From Rhodopirellula sp. (GTDB lineage: Bacteria > Planctomycetota > Planctomycetia > Pirellulales > Pirellulaceae), in contig NZVD01000074.1 of NCBI GenBank assembly GCA_002701385.1, positions 1,663 through 34,538 on the forward strand: 32,876 bases of DNA, given 5' to 3'. The translations under genes were made by a program, and so were the position numbers. The notes beneath the pieces are model-generated. The model made no database searches. It was not told the origin of the DNA and worked only from the letters and a program-made list of their open reading frames with translations. The stretch's first letter is position 1, and each line of letters begins with the position of its first letter. Positions 10,739 through 22,310 of this stretch are shown piece by piece.

Positions 10739-11281
10739 TTACCCTTCGTCAGTAGAATTGATGTCCACGGTCGTTGTCTCTGGTGCCATAAGCGTCGAGC
10801 GGCTGGAGTTGTCGGAATTTGGAATATCGCGTGCAACCCGAGGGGCGACATTCATGAGCCCTGCAAAGAGCACTACCAGAATCGCCGCCATCATATTGAT
10901 TTTACCCCACTTGGCTTCCTGTTCCTGAAACTTAATGGCCACTTCACTTCGTCCCGATAATAACGAACTGACATAAAAGACAATTCCGACCAGGATGAGT
11001 TTTGCGGTAAAGGCAGCATGATAAATCGGAGTGGGTTTCGGATCACCCTTAAATGCGATGTACGCATTATAGAAGCCACTAATGATAATAATGCCAGCAC
11101 AGATCATGATGACTTTCGCCCAGGTCCGCTTAATCTTCCCTTTGACGTCATTGGCATCATCGCTGTCTTTGAGGGCTGGGATAAGAGTGGTTTGCATGAA
11201 GATGGAACCGCCCACCAGAATGACTGCCGGTAAGATGTGTCCCCACCGTGAAAGTAGTTTGATGTAGTCTGTCGGTTCCAT
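10739..11281 (-). CDS. Four-helix integral membrane protein, CopD-like in outline
   Basis: A 180-residue inner-membrane protein with four predicted transmembrane helices: about 17-36 (ILPAVILVGGSIFM), 54-75 (VIMICAGIIIISGFYNAYIAF), 88-108 (AAFTAKLILVGIVFYVSSLL) and 128-146 (MMAAILVVLFAGLMNV). The first helix pattern (RWGHILPAVILVGGSIF) resembles the start of CopD/DUF2269-type membrane proteins, which also have a His in that position, but I see no defined metal site and would not assign copper transport. The C-terminal 30 residues are polar and Ser/Thr-rich. It lies 12 nt downstream of the CCA-adding enzyme gene and 8 nt upstream of the small helical protein gene, so the three form an operon. 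Confidence 0.75.
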   Translation of the reverse strand: MEPTDYIKLLSRWGHILPAVILVGGSIFMQTTLIPALKDSDDANDVKGKIKRTWAKVIMICAGIIIISGFYNAYIAFKGDPKPTPIYHAAFTAKLILVGIVFYVSSLLSGRSEVAIKFQEQEAKWGKINMMAAILVVLFAGLMNVAPRVARDIPNSDNSSRSTLMAPETTTVDINSTDEG

Positions 11282-16034: not shown

Positions 16035-17408
16035 ATGTGCAATTATTATCAAAAACTATCTATTAACATCTTGTTGTTAGTAATTTGTCCATCGCTTCCT
16101 TGCCTGGCACAGAGCCGTTCGGTCGAACCAGGTAGGATTGTTTATGAAAATCCTATCAATCCGGTGTCGATGAACACACTTGCTCTGCCAGAAGGACTCG
16201 ACTCAGCCAAGGAAAAGGCTCGCGAATTCGAATTCGGCGGTGAATTCCGCATGCGTTACCACAATGAGAACAATCACCGGCCCTCACCAACTCTTGCCAA
16301 CTCGCTTGGTCTAACCGGAACCGACGATGACTTCATACTATATCGCACACGACTGTGGATGGATGCAAAGTTTAATGAACGCCTGAATCTGTACGTCGAG
16401 ATGCTCGATGCCGAAAGCAGTCTGGAGAACTTCCCATCGCGTGGTAATGAAGTTGACCGTCTGGATCTTCATCAGGCTTACGCTGACATCGCACTTAATG
16501 ATCACCTCCAGGCAAAGCTCGGGAGACAGTCGGTTGATATCGGTTCAACGCGGTTGGTTGGTGAAGGGGAATGGGCGAATACTCGCCGAGCATTTGACGG
16601 CCTGCAGCTTTCTCTGGAAAACGAAAACTTTGACCTGGATGCATACTATCTTCATCCGCTATCCATGCAACGGCAAGGTTTCAATCAGACGAATAATGAC
16701 GTCCGTCTGTATGGTATCAACACCCGCCAGCAGGTTAATGAAAAGATTACGCGGAGTTACTACTGGTTGTCGCTGGAACTAGATAATATCGATGCTCGAT
16801 ATGACACCTTCGGTTTCCATTCAAAAGGGGCACGCGGTGATTTGCTTTATGAGTTTGAGGGCGGTGTGCAGGCTGGCCGAAATCCTGATCAGACAAACCA
16901 TCTGGCTGGTTTAGCTGTCATTGGATTGGGAACCGAGTTGCAAGGGAAAATACCTGGTCAATTGTGGGTTTACTACGAGTGGGCCTCTGGTAGTGATACT
17001 CCTGGGAATGGATGGCACCATTACTTCCCGCGCGCCCATCGTCATCTTGGATACATCGATTTATTTGGACGTCGCAATCTAAATGACGTCAATGTGCGAT
17101 GGGATTACCAACCGACCGAGTCACTTGAACTGCGAGTGCACTATCATTATTTCAGTCTCGCCAATCGTGCGGATGTTCCCTACAACACCAACATGACTCC
17201 GTTTGCAGGACTCGGGGCGAATACGTCAGGTAGCAGCAGTTTGGGTCATGAAATTGACTTGCTGGCAACTCTGAAGCTGAACGAGCGGCTGAAATTCCAA
17301 CTCGGGTATGCACACTTCTTTGCGGGTGCATACTATCAAACAACCCCGGGCGCACCTCATTCCGGTGATGCGCAATTCTTTTATACGCAGATGTCGTTGG
17401 AATTTTAA
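16035..17408 (+). CDS. Outer-membrane beta-barrel, alginate-export type
   Basis: A predicted outer-membrane porin of 457 residues. The signal peptide runs to about residue 25 (PCLAQS), followed by a short periplasmic segment and alternating beta strands. The N-terminal barrel pattern (FEFGGEFRMRYHNENNHRP, LYRTRLWMDAKFNERLNLYVEMLDA, LHQAYADIALNDHLQAKLGRQSVDIGSTRLVGEGEWANTRRAFDGLQLS) is the signature of the alginate-export (AlgE-like) family. The last residue is Phe (SLEF), as expected for assembly by the BAM machinery. It would carry acidic or neutral sugars across the outer membrane. GAGGGGAAAG lies about 10 nt before the ATG. The next gene encodes a Tat-exported isomerase, and the surrounding block encodes exported enzymes, suggesting carbohydrate handling. 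Confidence 0.85.
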   Translation: MCNYYQKLSINILLLVICPSLPCLAQSRSVEPGRIVYENPINPVSMNTLALPEGLDSAKEKAREFEFGGEFRMRYHNENNHRPSPTLANSLGLTGTDDDFILYRTRLWMDAKFNERLNLYVEMLDAESSLENFPSRGNEVDRLDLHQAYADIALNDHLQAKLGRQSVDIGSTRLVGEGEWANTRRAFDGLQLSLENENFDLDAYYLHPLSMQRQGFNQTNNDVRLYGINTRQQVNEKITRSYYWLSLELDNIDARYDTFGFHSKGARGDLLYEFEGGVQAGRNPDQTNHLAGLAVIGLGTELQGKIPGQLWVYYEWASGSDTPGNGWHHYFPRAHRHLGYIDLFGRRNLNDVNVRWDYQPTESLELRVHYHYFSLANRADVPYNTNMTPFAGLGANTSGSSSLGHEIDLLATLKLNERLKFQLGYAHFFAGAYYQTTPGAPHSGDAQFFYTQMSLEF

Positions 17409-17544: not shown

Positions 17545-18438
17545 TTGAAACGACGAGACTTTCTCAAAACAACAGCAGGATCTAGTGCTCTCGGCTTAAC
17601 GACTTCTCTCGCCCGCCCACTTATGGCGTTACCGGAAAATTCAAAATACAAAGCTACCATTGGTCTGCAGTTGTGGACCGTTCGCAACGAATTGAAGCAA
17701 GATAAGCAGGCAACACTAAAGTCGGTCGCAGATGCCGGTTATCAACAAGTTGAATTTGGTGGTGTCGATCAGGGCCTCGAACTCCAGACGCTCTGTAAGG
17801 ACCTTGGCTTGAAAATGACGTCCTCGTTCATCAATTGGCAAGCTATTTGTAACCCGAAAAACAAAAATGCTCCTTCTCTGGAATCGGTGATCGAGGATGC
17901 AAAGAAACTGGAATTGAAGCACCTTGTATTTGGTTATATTGGCAAAAGCTTTCGTCAGACAGCAGATCAGTTCCACGCCCATATTGAACGCGCTAATCTA
18001 TTTGGAGAGATGTGTAAAAAGGCAGGGATCCAATTGTGTTATCACAATCATGCTTTTGAATTTGAGAAAATCGAAGGTGACAAAACAGGATTTGATTTGT
18101 TCATAGAAGGTTTTGACCCGGAAAACTGCAAGTTTGAATTGGACGTATTCTGGGTGAAGATCGGAGGCTGGGATCCCTATCGAACCTTAAAGCGACTGGA
18201 TGGTCGTGTTTCTCAAGTTCATCTTAAAGATCTTAAGTTAGGTTCTCCGATTTTCTATGACGAGAGTCAAGTTCCTCATGATTCCTTTAAAGAACTGGGG
18301 AACGGGTCGATTGATATGCGGAAAGTGATGAAGATTTCTGAAGCGATTGGTGTGGAACAATGTCATGTTGAGCAAGATCAGTCGTCTGATCCGATTAAGA
18401 GCATTTATCAAAGCATTTCGCATCTCCATACGCTCTGA
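17545..18438 (+). CDS. Tat-exported sugar phosphate isomerase/epimerase-like TIM barrel
   Basis: A xylose-isomerase-like TIM-barrel protein (IolE/IolI relatives) of 297 residues. The N-terminus MKRRDFLKTTAGSSALGL is a twin-arginine signal (RR at 3-4), so the folded, cofactor-loaded enzyme is exported to the periplasm. Barrel features are IGLQLWTVRN, VEFGGVD, the metal-binding segment CYHNHAFEFEK, FELDVFWVKIGGWDP, VSQVHLKDLK and the C-terminal CHVEQDQS. The start is a TTG at 17545, with GGAG 8 nt upstream; the ATG at 17531 is out of frame and closes at once. Substrate unknown. The gene follows the porin by 136 nt and is directly followed by a 10-bp inverted repeat at 18441-18524. Confidence 0.88.
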   Translation: MKRRDFLKTTAGSSALGLTTSLARPLMALPENSKYKATIGLQLWTVRNELKQDKQATLKSVADAGYQQVEFGGVDQGLELQTLCKDLGLKMTSSFINWQAICNPKNKNAPSLESVIEDAKKLELKHLVFGYIGKSFRQTADQFHAHIERANLFGEMCKKAGIQLCYHNHAFEFEKIEGDKTGFDLFIEGFDPENCKFELDVFWVKIGGWDPYRTLKRLDGRVSQVHLKDLKLGSPIFYDESQVPHDSFKELGNGSIDMRKVMKISEAIGVEQCHVEQDQSSDPIKSIYQSISHLHTL

Positions 18439-20513: not shown

Positions 20514-20544
20514 TTTACTCTGTACTTTGGTACGGAGTTATAAT
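20514..20544 (+). promoter_or_regulatory. MerR-type promoter and operator
   Basis: A -35 element TTTACT (20514-20519) and a consensus -10 TATAAT (20539-20544) are separated by 19 bp, the overlong spacer typical of MerR-family promoters. Filling the spacer are the half-sites ACTCTGTAC (20517-20525) and GTACGGAGT (20530-20538), with one mismatch and a four-base centre. The core GTAC-N4-GTAC with the flanking GGA matches the known mercury (mer) operator more closely than the ZntR- or CueR-type sequences I know. It lies directly before the regulator gene at 20551, so the regulator is probably autoregulated. Confidence 0.85.
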
Positions 20545-20550
20545 TCTTGC

Positions 20551-21003
20551 ATGGAACAAAAATTACAAGAACTAATGACGATTGGTGGTCTGGCCAAAGA
20601 GGCTGGGGTTGGCGTTGAAACTGTCCGATTTTATCAGAGGAAGGGGCTGCTCAGGATACCTGACCGAACGTCAGGTTTTCGAAAGTATTCTGAATTAGAC
20701 CTGCGTCAGATCAGGTTTATCAAAAGAATTCAGGAACTTGGCTTCACGCTCAAGGATGCAGAATCCCTTCTTGAGATTACTTTTTGTTCCCCCAAGACAC
20801 GACCACTTCTTGAAAAGGTTTGTAACGAGAAGATCGTGGAGATTGAAAAAAAAATAGCTGATTTGAATGGCATGTTGGTTGAACTACGCCAGTTTCACCA
20901 ATCATGCGGTTGTGAAGCGTCGAATACTCTTCAATGCAGCCTTCTTGAATGTTTTGAAAACGATTGGGAATGCTGCGAGAACCCTAATAGGAGAAAGAAA
21001 TGA
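20551..21003 (+). CDS. MerR-family metal-responsive regulator
   Basis: A 150-residue DNA-distorting transcriptional activator. The N-terminal winged helix (MTIGGLAKEAGVGVETVRFYQRKGLL, about 9-34, then SGFRKYSELDLRQIRFIKRIQELGF) is very close to mercury-type MerR. The long dimerisation helix (VEIEKKIADLNGMLVELRQF) and a C-terminal cysteine cluster follow: Cys79, Cys91, Cys119, Cys121, Cys129, Cys134, Cys141 and Cys142. The C119-x-C121 to Cys129 layout resembles the metal loop of MerR/ZntR. Cys79, however, lies about five residues further from the helix than the equivalent residue in those proteins by eye, so the metal is not assigned. The start is ATG 20551; the open frame extends to a TTG at 20527 inside the promoter. 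Its TGA overlaps the start of the cysteine-rich gene (ATGA). Confidence 0.93.
   Translation: MEQKLQELMTIGGLAKEAGVGVETVRFYQRKGLLRIPDRTSGFRKYSELDLRQIRFIKRIQELGFTLKDAESLLEITFCSPKTRPLLEKVCNEKIVEIEKKIADLNGMLVELRQFHQSCGCEASNTLQCSLLECFENDWECCENPNRRKK
20989..20994 (+). promoter_or_regulatory. Ribosome binding site of the cysteine-rich gene
   Basis: AGGAGA lies 5 nt before the ATG at 21000, inside the last codons of the regulator gene. It is one of the best Shine-Dalgarno matches in the window and supports real translation of the 45-residue peptide. Confidence 0.85.
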
Positions 21004-21137
21004 AAGATTCTTGTGAATGCTGTAATACTGGCAAATGTATGTGTAAAGCAGCCGCGTGTAACTGCTGTTGCGGTTCTGAATCCTGTGGCTGTAGTTCGCA
21101 ATGTGTCTGTGGAGATTGCTGCACTGCCTGTTGCTAA
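21000..21137 (+). CDS. Metallothionein-like cysteine-rich peptide, 45 aa
   Basis: A tiny cytoplasmic peptide, probably a metal-sequestering metallothionein analogue. It has 17 Cys in 45 residues (positions 5, 7, 8, 13, 15, 20, 22-24, 29, 31, 35, 37, 40, 41, 44, 45): five C-x-C motifs, one CCC and several CC pairs, with no aromatic residue and no His, and no signal peptide. It begins MKDSCECC and ends CCTACC. The ATG overlaps the TGA of the MerR-family regulator, and AGGAGA 5 nt upstream gives strong translation, so the two genes are one operon under the mer-like promoter. It does not match the His- and aromatic-containing SmtA/BmtA bacterial metallothioneins I know. A terminator follows at 21185. 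Metal identity and function are inferred from composition and context. Confidence 0.85.
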   Translation: MKDSCECCNTGKCMCKAAACNCCCGSESCGCSSQCVCGDCCTACC

Positions 21138-21184
21138 CAGAAATTAAATCGGTTACTAATTCAGCGGCGTCTATTGGACGATCG

Positions 21185-21217
21185 AAACAGCGTAGGAAAT
21201 CCCTACGCTGTTTTTTT
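21185..21217 (+). terminator. Intrinsic terminator of the regulator/cysteine-rich operon
   Basis: AAACAGCGTAGG (21185-21196) pairs perfectly with CCTACGCTGTTT (21202-21213) across a five-base loop, and the T run continues to 21217. It lies 47 nt after the stop codon of the cysteine-rich gene and isolates the operon from the next isomerase gene. Confidence 0.94.
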
Positions 21218-21428
21218 GTGCTTGGATGATAGTTATGATGAAATAAAAGCTATTTGAATAAATGCCTCGGGCTGAGTTTAGATTAGAAGGTCGTAAACTA
21301 AACGACTCTTGACTATCCTCAAAATTACGTGGGTTAAAACTGATACAAAACACACTCGCTAGATGGGCAAATGCATTTGCTTGCCTTCCATAACGCTACT
21401 ATCAACTCACAGATTGGATTTCATTACT

Positions 21429-22310
21429 ATGACAAACCATCCACGCCGTCAATTTCTCAAAAAAACACTTATCGCTACTGCTGGAATTGGTTACCTTCCA
21501 CATTTAGCCAACGCAGCCTATGCTCCTAATAAGTCTGCCAAAGGCATGAGATTTGGCTTGGTAACTTACCTTTGGGGTAAGGATATGGATCTTCCCACTT
21601 TATTGGATGTCTGTGAGAAATCCGGAGTTCTGGGGGTTGAATTGCGTACCCAACATGCCCATGGTGTTGAGCCCGAATTATCAAAGCTACAAAGAGCGGA
21701 GGTCAGGAAACGCTTCGCGGATAGCCCGGTAGAGTTGGTAGGTTACGGGTCCAATGCTCAATACCACGAAAACGACCCAGCCAAAGTCAAAGCCAATATC
21801 GCTTTGACAAAAGAATACCTAAGCTTGATGCATGATTGTGGTGGCAGTGGCGTTAAAGTCAAACCGAATGGATTTGTGAATGATGTTCCCCGAGAAAAGA
21901 CCATCGAGCAAATTGGCTTGTCCTTAAATGAAGTGGCGAAATTCGGAAAGGAGCTTGGACAGGAGATTCGCGTAGAGGTTCATGGACGGGGGACAAGTGA
22001 ACTGCCGGTGGTGCGTGATATCTTCAAAGTTGCCACGCATCCCAATGCCACGGTTTGTTGGAACTCCAATGATGTTGATCTCGATGGTGCCGGGCTTGGT
22101 GAAAACTTTGACATGGTGAAAGACCGATTTGGTAGTACCGTTCATATACGTGAACTCAATGTAGGTAATTATCCTTATCCGGAGTTGATGAAAAAGTTTA
22201 ATGAGATGGACTATCAAGGATGGATTTTGCTGGAAGCACGGACCAACCCGGCCGACAAAATCTCAGCATTAATAGAGCAACGTGAGATTTTTGAACGGAT
22301 GATTTCCTGA
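21429..22310 (+). CDS. Second Tat-exported sugar isomerase/epimerase-like TIM barrel
   Basis: A 293-residue protein of the same broad fold as the 17545 gene, but only distantly similar by eye. The N-terminus MTNHPRRQFLKKTLIATAGIGYLPHLANA is a twin-arginine signal (RR at 6-7), cleaved near ANA-AY. Barrel segments are MRFGLVTYLWGKDMDLPTLLDVCEKSGVLGVELRTQHAHGVEP, VELVGYGSNAQYHEND, the metal-binding region IRVEVHGRGTSELP, CWNSNDVDLDG, VHIRELNVGNYPYPEL and GWILLEARTNPADK. I start at ATG 21429 because it places the Tat motif correctly; the frame is open from 21363, but that extension has no matching signal. The substrate is unknown. It is followed by a small perfect hairpin at 22329 and then the sulfatase gene. 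Confidence 0.88.
   Translation: MTNHPRRQFLKKTLIATAGIGYLPHLANAAYAPNKSAKGMRFGLVTYLWGKDMDLPTLLDVCEKSGVLGVELRTQHAHGVEPELSKLQRAEVRKRFADSPVELVGYGSNAQYHENDPAKVKANIALTKEYLSLMHDCGGSGVKVKPNGFVNDVPREKTIEQIGLSLNEVAKFGKELGQEIRVEVHGRGTSELPVVRDIFKVATHPNATVCWNSNDVDLDGAGLGENFDMVKDRFGSTVHIRELNVGNYPYPELMKKFNEMDYQGWILLEARTNPADKISALIEQREIFERMIS

Follow-up and report, generated by a model that had tools for sequence, protein, structure and literature searches.

In the window, by which we mean the whole stretch of 32,876 nucleotides that was analysed, a MerR-family regulator gene and a very short gene for a cysteine-rich peptide lie one behind the other between a single promoter/operator and an intrinsic terminator (Table 1). 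The promoter/operator, the MerR gene, the ATGA overlap, the 45-codon gene with 17 cysteines, and the perfect terminator had all been proposed in a first-pass annotation of this DNA, and every one of them was recovered. The combination of operator, regulator, and peptide is referred to below as the module.

Table 1. Features of the merR-peptide operon, in window positions
Feature	Position	Strand	Basis
MerR-type promoter/operator	20514-20544	+	sequence; geometry kept in 12/12 genomes
-35 box TTTACT	20514-20519	+	sequence
Operator dyad ACTCTGTAC-tttg-GTACGGAGT, GTAC-N4-GTAC type	20517-20538	+	between promoter boxes
-10 box TATAAT	20539-20544	+	sequence; 19-bp spacer from -35
merR-family gene, 150 aa	20551-21003	+	ATG 20551, stop TGA ending 21003; Pfam matches
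Shine-Dalgarno-like AGGAGA ahead of peptide gene	20989-20994	+	sequence
ATGA stop-start overlap, merR/peptide gene	21000-21003	+	sequence
Metallothionein-like peptide gene, 45 aa, 17 Cys (38%), 0 His	21000-21137	+	ORF, relatives' alignment
Intrinsic terminator: 12-nt arms, 5-nt loop, T7	21185-21217	+	sequence; perfect arms and T7

An over-long spacer of 19 to 20 bp is described in a passage of PMC9909328 as a hallmark of MerR promoters. Such a spacer, with the dyad lying in the target promoter, was present in all 12 genomes that carry the module, at 19 bp in the three members of the window's genus and at 20 bp in the other nine, and the motif ACTC[CT]GTAC-N4-GTACGGAGT was found in 12/12. The promoter was missing from a generic sigma-70 scan because that scan allows spacers of 16 to 18 nt only; a new kind of promoter was ruled out, the geometry being that of a standard MerR promoter. 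Transcription usually begins about 7 nt past the -10 box. In 12/12 module genomes, 6 nt separated the -10 box from the merR ATG, and the merR-peptide mRNA is therefore probably leaderless. An alternative start of the regulator ORF lies at TTG 20527, and Met9, which is invariant among ten aligned regulators, could be the true start instead of ATG 20551.

The junction between the two genes varied across the 12 genomes, with an ATGA overlap in four, a 1-nt gap in one, and a 13-nt gap in seven, and a GGAG stretch lay close on the 5' side of the peptide ATG in every row. Where the ATGA overlap is present, it is likely to couple translation of the peptide gene to that of merR. At the end of the operon, the terminator arms (21185-21196 and 21202-21213) are 100% complementary and a T7 tract occupies 21211-21217. 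The generic scan returned two terminator-like sites, the operator dyad being one, compared to a mean of 1.3 (standard deviation, 1.2) in shuffled sequences; because this count is not above that of the shuffles, the terminator call rests on the perfect 12-nt arms and the T7. Of the relatives, only the closest, NAT223, had a comparably strong hairpin; in the others it was weaker, composite, or absent.

The cysteines of the peptide are arranged in CC and CxC pairs throughout. In an alignment of ten peptides, Cys was invariant at 16 of its 17 columns (one row, from Nitrospirales, has 16 Cys), the codon switched between TGT and TGC at 14 of those 16, and only 4 of the 29 ungapped non-Cys columns were invariant. 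Because the cysteines were kept through synonymous codon change while other columns were mostly free to vary, selection acts on the thiols. Histidine was absent from the peptide in 11 of the 12 genomes. The window peptide matched zero families in Pfam and NCBIfam and zero PDB entries at an E value of ≤1, and three relatives' peptides matched zero NCBIfam families at ≤0.1; there was accordingly no Pfam or NCBIfam match to the profile of a described metallothionein family of the SmtA/BmtA type. In the broad sense of the term, the peptide has the properties of a metallothionein: it is small and very Cys-rich, and beyond the spacing of its cysteines little of it is conserved. It is probably an unclassified metallothionein of a family that was not found described.

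Operator, regulator, and Cys-rich peptide occurred together in 12 genomes, 5 from Planctomycetota and 7 from Nitrospirota. A regulator search of 60 related genomes returned two close orthologs (89% and 81% identical), both in the window's genus and both followed by the same 45-aa ORF. Within that genus the module was present in 3/9 genomes, and the other six, some of them incomplete, gave no regulator match. One genus member, G008, retained the gene that neighbours the module upstream (83% identity), with neither operator nor Cys-rich ORF in the 1.5 kb past it, so the unit seems to be gained or lost whole.

Searches with the peptide profile extended this distribution. Across 296 genomes of the order, four matches were obtained, namely the window's own, G001, G144 (a new genus), and L035; the last (E value, 0.005) was spurious and was dropped, as neither a Cys-rich peptide nor a MerR was among its ORFs of at least 60 aa. 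A phylum-wide sample gave only the window's own genome (1/392). The peptide alignment produced 110 pattern matches in GTDB genomes, of which 9 were confirmed, 4 in Planctomycetota (G001, G004, G144, and a Blastopirellula metagenome-assembled genome [MAG]) and 5 in Nitrospirales MAGs, and in all nine a MerR-family gene lay directly upstream with the operator before it. A Nitrospirota-wide sample contained the peptide in 6/295 genomes, two of them new, again with operator and regulator. The first-pass annotation had spoken of a planctomycetal operon, which holds for the five Planctomycetota but is too narrow for a module with 7 of its 12 genomes in Nitrospirota.

The same association was seen when the regulator was the query. 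In the order, 3/296 genomes scored at least 270 bits, with the next best at 128 bits, and in Nitrospirota 6/295 scored above 280 bits, with the next best at 151 bits. A Cys-rich peptide ORF followed the regulator in 3/3 and 6/6 of these high-scoring cases and in none of the 31 other loci (17 plus 14) among the best 20 loci of each search. That the small ORF is conserved next to the regulator had been named beforehand as one of two observations, the other being induction by metal, on which the first-pass proposal would stand or fall, and this conservation was borne out in both phyla. Under a looser filter, L103 and L127 showed another Cys-rich ORF, away from the regulator. The short frame could in principle be a chance ORF or a decaying remnant beside a lone merR, as its size and lack of a database family might suggest, but cysteines that stay invariant through synonymous codon change across two phyla, in a gene order kept in 12/12 genomes, reduce the probability of this to almost nothing, and it was rejected.

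To place the regulators, a tree of 59 rows was built from 12 module MerRs, 6 yardsticks, and 41 others. Left out were L014 (merR ORF not found), L029 (the second MerR of G057), weaker matches (L015-L020, L025-L028, L030, and L031), and repeat loci (L100-L102, L104, L108, and L119-L124). The 12 module regulators formed a single clade with support of 100/100, and the Nitrospirota rows were nested among the planctomycete rows. This nesting suggests that the module moved between Planctomycetota and Nitrospirota in one direction or the other; the tree holds few taxa, and its nearest outgroup, L125 (G882; support, 98/90), which has the same operator type, is itself from Nitrospirota. No match to the peptide at an E value of ≤0.01 was found in 72,556 plasmid records, and none of 119 pattern matches in IMG/VR viral contigs was confirmed, so there was no sign of a plasmid or viral carrier. 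The module is rare and apparently horizontally shared.

At L125 itself (1465-2999), the MerR heads a gene for an ArsI/CadI-family enzyme (144 bits; cut-off, 116) and an aquaporin gene, a possible MerR-controlled arsenic or cadmium operon. The GTAC-N4-GTAC arrangement also stands, at a similar position, ahead of 11 of 30 related merR loci (L103-L118 and L125-L138) in Planctomycetota and Nitrospirota (L104, L107, L110, L111, L114, L117, L125, L126, and L132-L134), which have this operator class in common.

Within genomes, the exact operator was far more restricted. It occurred once per genome in 10/10 of the module genomes searched (of 12), always at the merR-peptide operon, and this supports a regulon that would consist of that operon alone. 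Sites with two mismatches beyond the exact site numbered 9 in total over the 10 genomes, compared to 35 for a reversed-pattern control; in the window's own genome there were 3, compared to 2 for the control.

The regulator has both parts expected of its family, an N-terminal winged helix-turn-helix (HTH) MerR domain and a dimerisation helix. Pfam matches were to PF13411 (E value, 2.1e-17; 63.4 bits; cut-off, 21.6) and PF09278 (E value, 4.7e-11; 43.6 bits; cut-off, 25.4). An AlphaFold model (10 sequences; mean pLDDT, 73) showed the HTH, a wing, a long helix (residues 84 to 120) with C119 near its end, a loop, and a short helix (131 to 136), with low confidence in the loop up to C129 and in the C-terminal stretch that holds C141 and C142. 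In ten aligned regulators, C79 and C129 were invariant (10/10), C119 was present in 9/10, the tenth being an X from an ambiguous base, and C91, C134, C141, and C142 were also invariant. The last three of these fall in a motif at residues 134 to 142, CFENxWECC, that is invariant in the ten, is missing from the fetched mer MerRs, and has a weaker form in the outgroup L125 (CFEPGWKCE); as speculation, it could be an extra or second metal site.

A passage of PMC9909328 gives Cys82', Cys117, and Cys126 as the Hg ligands of Tn501 MerR, and according to parts of PMC9909328 and PMC11591864 a Cys at the position of residue 79 goes with sensors of +2 metals and a Ser with sensors of +1 metals, with exceptions listed in PMC11591864. 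The best solved relative of the regulator was 5crl, "Mercuric resistance operon regulatory protein" (E value, 2.5e-21), followed by 4ua1. C79 paired with Cys82 of 5crl in the structure-relative search, and a profile alignment shifted this pair by three residues; in both alignments C129 paired with the last Hg ligand and C119 lay two residues before the middle one, at a position that in the profile alignment is also a Cys. The 4ua1 entry is a Hg MerR of Bacillus. The best NCBIfam match was TIGR02051, the Hg-responsive MerR equivalog, at 102.2 bits (103.9 and 109.7 bits for two module relatives), below its cut-off of 150.85, and the next best were ZntR models at 94 bits, compared to a cut-off of 143. 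Since the regulator fell under the curated cut-off of every metal-sensor model in the NCBIfam search, this does not fix the metal. Neither does the tree settle it, because its deep branches have weak support and the yardstick Hg MerRs are spread over more than one group.

Mercury is nonetheless the most likely inducing ion, and our estimate for it is a little under one half. The best NCBIfam and PDB matches of the regulator are mercury regulators, 32 of 40 plasmid relatives of the NAT61 regulator, among the matches listed, are labelled as mercury regulators, and MerT-domain genes follow the related MerRs of L126 (just over cut-off) and L133, which have the same operator type. MerF follows L135, which has no GTAC-N4-GTAC site. 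Several observations speak against a firm call. The two alignments disagree on which cysteines match the Hg ligands of 5crl, and the best plasmid relative (Manganitrophus), despite its annotation as Hg(II)-responsive, is followed by a heavy-metal P-type ATPase gene and not by mer genes.

Cadmium, zinc, or lead are possible inducers at somewhat over one third, with other ions making up the rest; arsenic is possible too. The circuit would then be the same, run by one of these ions as in ZntR, CadR, and PbrR, and the peptide would be a Zn/Cd metallothionein with an SmtA-like role. We regard this as a credible minority reading. The ZntR models score nearly as high as the mercury model, the closest outgroup MerR stands beside the ArsI/CadI enzyme and aquaporin genes, a P-type ATPase gene follows the best plasmid relative, and the downstream part of the Nitrospira operator, GAGTGTAT, is zntA-like. 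Besides the mercury-labelled matches, the GTAC half-sites, which resemble those of fetched mer promoters, argue against it, as does a peptide that lacks His in 11/12 genomes, compared to the His-using metallothioneins of Pseudomonas described in part of PMC7387436. The left half of the window operator fits mer at 10/12 bases and Escherichia coli zntA at 9/12, and the right half fits both at 6/9. The comparison differed by one base in twelve for the window, three for UBA2972, and one for a Nitrospira site; because mer and zntA are barely separated, the operator match was not used as proof of the metal.

The surroundings of the operon in the window are ordinary. Pfam analysis of the 12 genes between 10739 and 25692 found no metal pump, MerA, or P-type ATPase above cut-off, in agreement with the earlier statement that no transporter, MerA, or P-type ATPase gene lies nearby; genes beyond this interval were read as ORFs only. 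The nearest to a transporter were an alginate-export porin match (16035-17408) and a sub-threshold CopD match (10739-11281), among genes for an endonuclease/phosphatase family protein, two sugar-isomerase-like proteins, a sulfatase, a DinB-like protein, and others. The two sugar-isomerase-like (AP_endonuc_2) genes, at 17545-18438 and 21363-22310, flank the operon within a few kilobases, and the product of the former has a weak, sub-threshold TAT-signal match.

Neither MerT/P nor merA or any other mer detoxification gene lies under the operator in the window module. MerA above cut-off was found in 0/10 module genomes and in one of 14 controls; lower-scoring relatives of MerA, perhaps enzymes such as lipoamide dehydrogenase, matched in all ten and in 14/14 controls. 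MerB was found in 0/12 module genomes, a weak result, since no control genome matched either.

MerC-domain genes were more frequent. One lies directly downstream of the module in the planctomycetes ZT42 and NAT61 (PF03203; 78 and 72 bits), so that it adjoins the module in 2/10 genomes, and MerC-domain proteins are encoded in 8/10; no MerC gene was found in G001 or G004 (69% completeness). The description of the locus as one autoregulated regulator plus one peptide, offered in the first-pass annotation, fits the single exact operator per genome, but with MerC added in two relatives the minimal two-gene form is not universal. The module-adjacent MerC proteins (L039 6393-7064 and L043 6220-7089) carry a Cys-rich insertion, with a domain match of about 170 residues compared to 108. 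The MerC-domain gene of the window's genome lies elsewhere and adjoins a Fur-family gene (L049, G000:C8 near 224164-224625; Pfam). Because of that Fur adjacency, which is also among the points in favour of cadmium, zinc, or lead, an adjacent MerC is weak evidence for mercury and was rejected as proof of it. A MerC-domain gene also adjoins a Fur-family gene in G697 (L048), as judged by eye, and the two loci together hint that MerC-domain proteins in these phyla may serve metal homeostasis outside mercury resistance.

The MerC genes bear as well on whether the peptide might be a delivery or redox partner, either a metallochaperone that passes metal to MerC or another membrane protein or a thiol buffer in oxidative stress. 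The adjacency in ZT42 and NAT61 and the occurrence of MerC-domain proteins in 8/10 genomes would suit such a role. We consider it improbable, as MerC is not adjacent in 8/10 genomes and was absent from the G001 and G004 searches, the peptide has zero Pfam matches and hence none to a chaperone domain, and its non-Cys positions are nearly free to vary, unlike those of a docking protein.

The observed base consists of the operon architecture and its conservation, an exact operator that is unique in each genome searched, and the constraint on the cysteines. From it we read the locus, with a probability of roughly three in four, as a MerR switch that controls its own expression, responds to a thiophilic +2 metal, and has a metallothionein as effector, forming a self-contained buffering operon. 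The behaviour of the two protein families would supply the repressor-activator action, the class of metal and its ligands, the leaderless start, chelation, and feedback. A MerR-family dimer would occupy its own promoter at the over-long spacer and keep it off until a thiophilic +2 ion is bound by Cys79 of one protomer and Cys119 and Cys129 of the other. The metal-bound dimer would then untwist the DNA, RNA polymerase would begin transcription on the merR ATG or directly beside it, and coupled translation of the resulting leaderless merR-peptide mRNA would yield the 45-aa, 17-Cys peptide. The peptide would chelate the inducing metal as cytoplasmic thiolate clusters, free metal would fall, and the circuit would shut off. 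This mechanism is well anchored on its regulatory side, and on its metal side it is what we infer from family membership.

A fuller version, put forward only tentatively and doubtful as a whole, would make this a MerA-free, horizontally exchanged Hg-tolerance module. It would combine a diverged clade of Hg-type MerRs, one leaderless operon as the whole regulon, and a new, largely His-free metallothionein family, through which some planctomycetes and Nitrospira would sequester Hg(II) and not reduce or export it, with MerC added in some lineages.

Several known systems resemble the module. SmtB belongs to the ArsR family, and SmtA has fewer cysteines and uses histidine. Cyanobacterial smtB-smtA, as described in part of PMC7387436, likewise pairs a dedicated metal-responsive regulator with an adjoining metallothionein gene as an autonomous unit. 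SmtB is, however, a divergently transcribed repressor (PMC7387436), whereas the regulator here is of the MerR family, co-directional with and overlapping the peptide gene, and probably leaderless, and its peptide is 38% Cys without His. SmtA/BmtA-type metallothioneins are also small Cys-rich peptides; the module peptide differs in its 17 Cys of 45 residues, lack of His, CC/CxC pairs throughout, and lack of a Pfam family. Operons in which merR stands with merT/P/A have in common with the module a GTAC half-site MerR promoter and a MerR-family sensor, whose cysteines in the module lie in or near the three expected regions. They differ from it in that the module has no MerT/P, its genomes have no MerA over cut-off (0/10), its effector is a predicted metal-binding peptide, and its regulator scores below the Hg-MerR cut-off. 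In Pseudomonas aeruginosa, the MerR-family sensor CadR controls Zrd, a small metal-binding Cys protein for which the authors draw a comparison with metallothioneins, as passages of PMC12301328 describe. Zrd, in contrast, belongs to the zinc-ribbon proteins and has two predicted Cys4 sites, and the cadA exporter is also part of the network under CadR (PMC12301328), whereas the exact operator of the module is unique to its two-gene operon. Full-text searches, by title and abstract opening and with most subscription literature outside their scope, found no MerR-controlled metallothionein operon named in print; the closest found were CadR-zrd and, with a different kind of regulator, smtB-smtA. The module is genuine, conserved, and rare, a putative two-gene unit of metal response built from known kinds of parts (a MerR switch and a metallothionein), and its combination and peptide family were not found described.

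Metal sensors of the MerR family mostly govern export or reduction. In this operon the sole other gene encodes a peptide of metal-binding type that belongs to no described family, and the module suggests that some bacteria may meet a mercury-like metal with a sponge and not with a pump or reductase. A survey of mer genes (PMC8261052) raises the question of how cells could cope with Hg(II) when they have no MerA and names thiol-based routes, and the word metallothionein is absent from its main text. The module would give a genetic handle on MerA-free handling of Hg(II). With one promoter and an apparently leaderless mRNA within 700 bp, it is also a candidate sensor-sink cassette that could be transferred in one piece to a laboratory strain.
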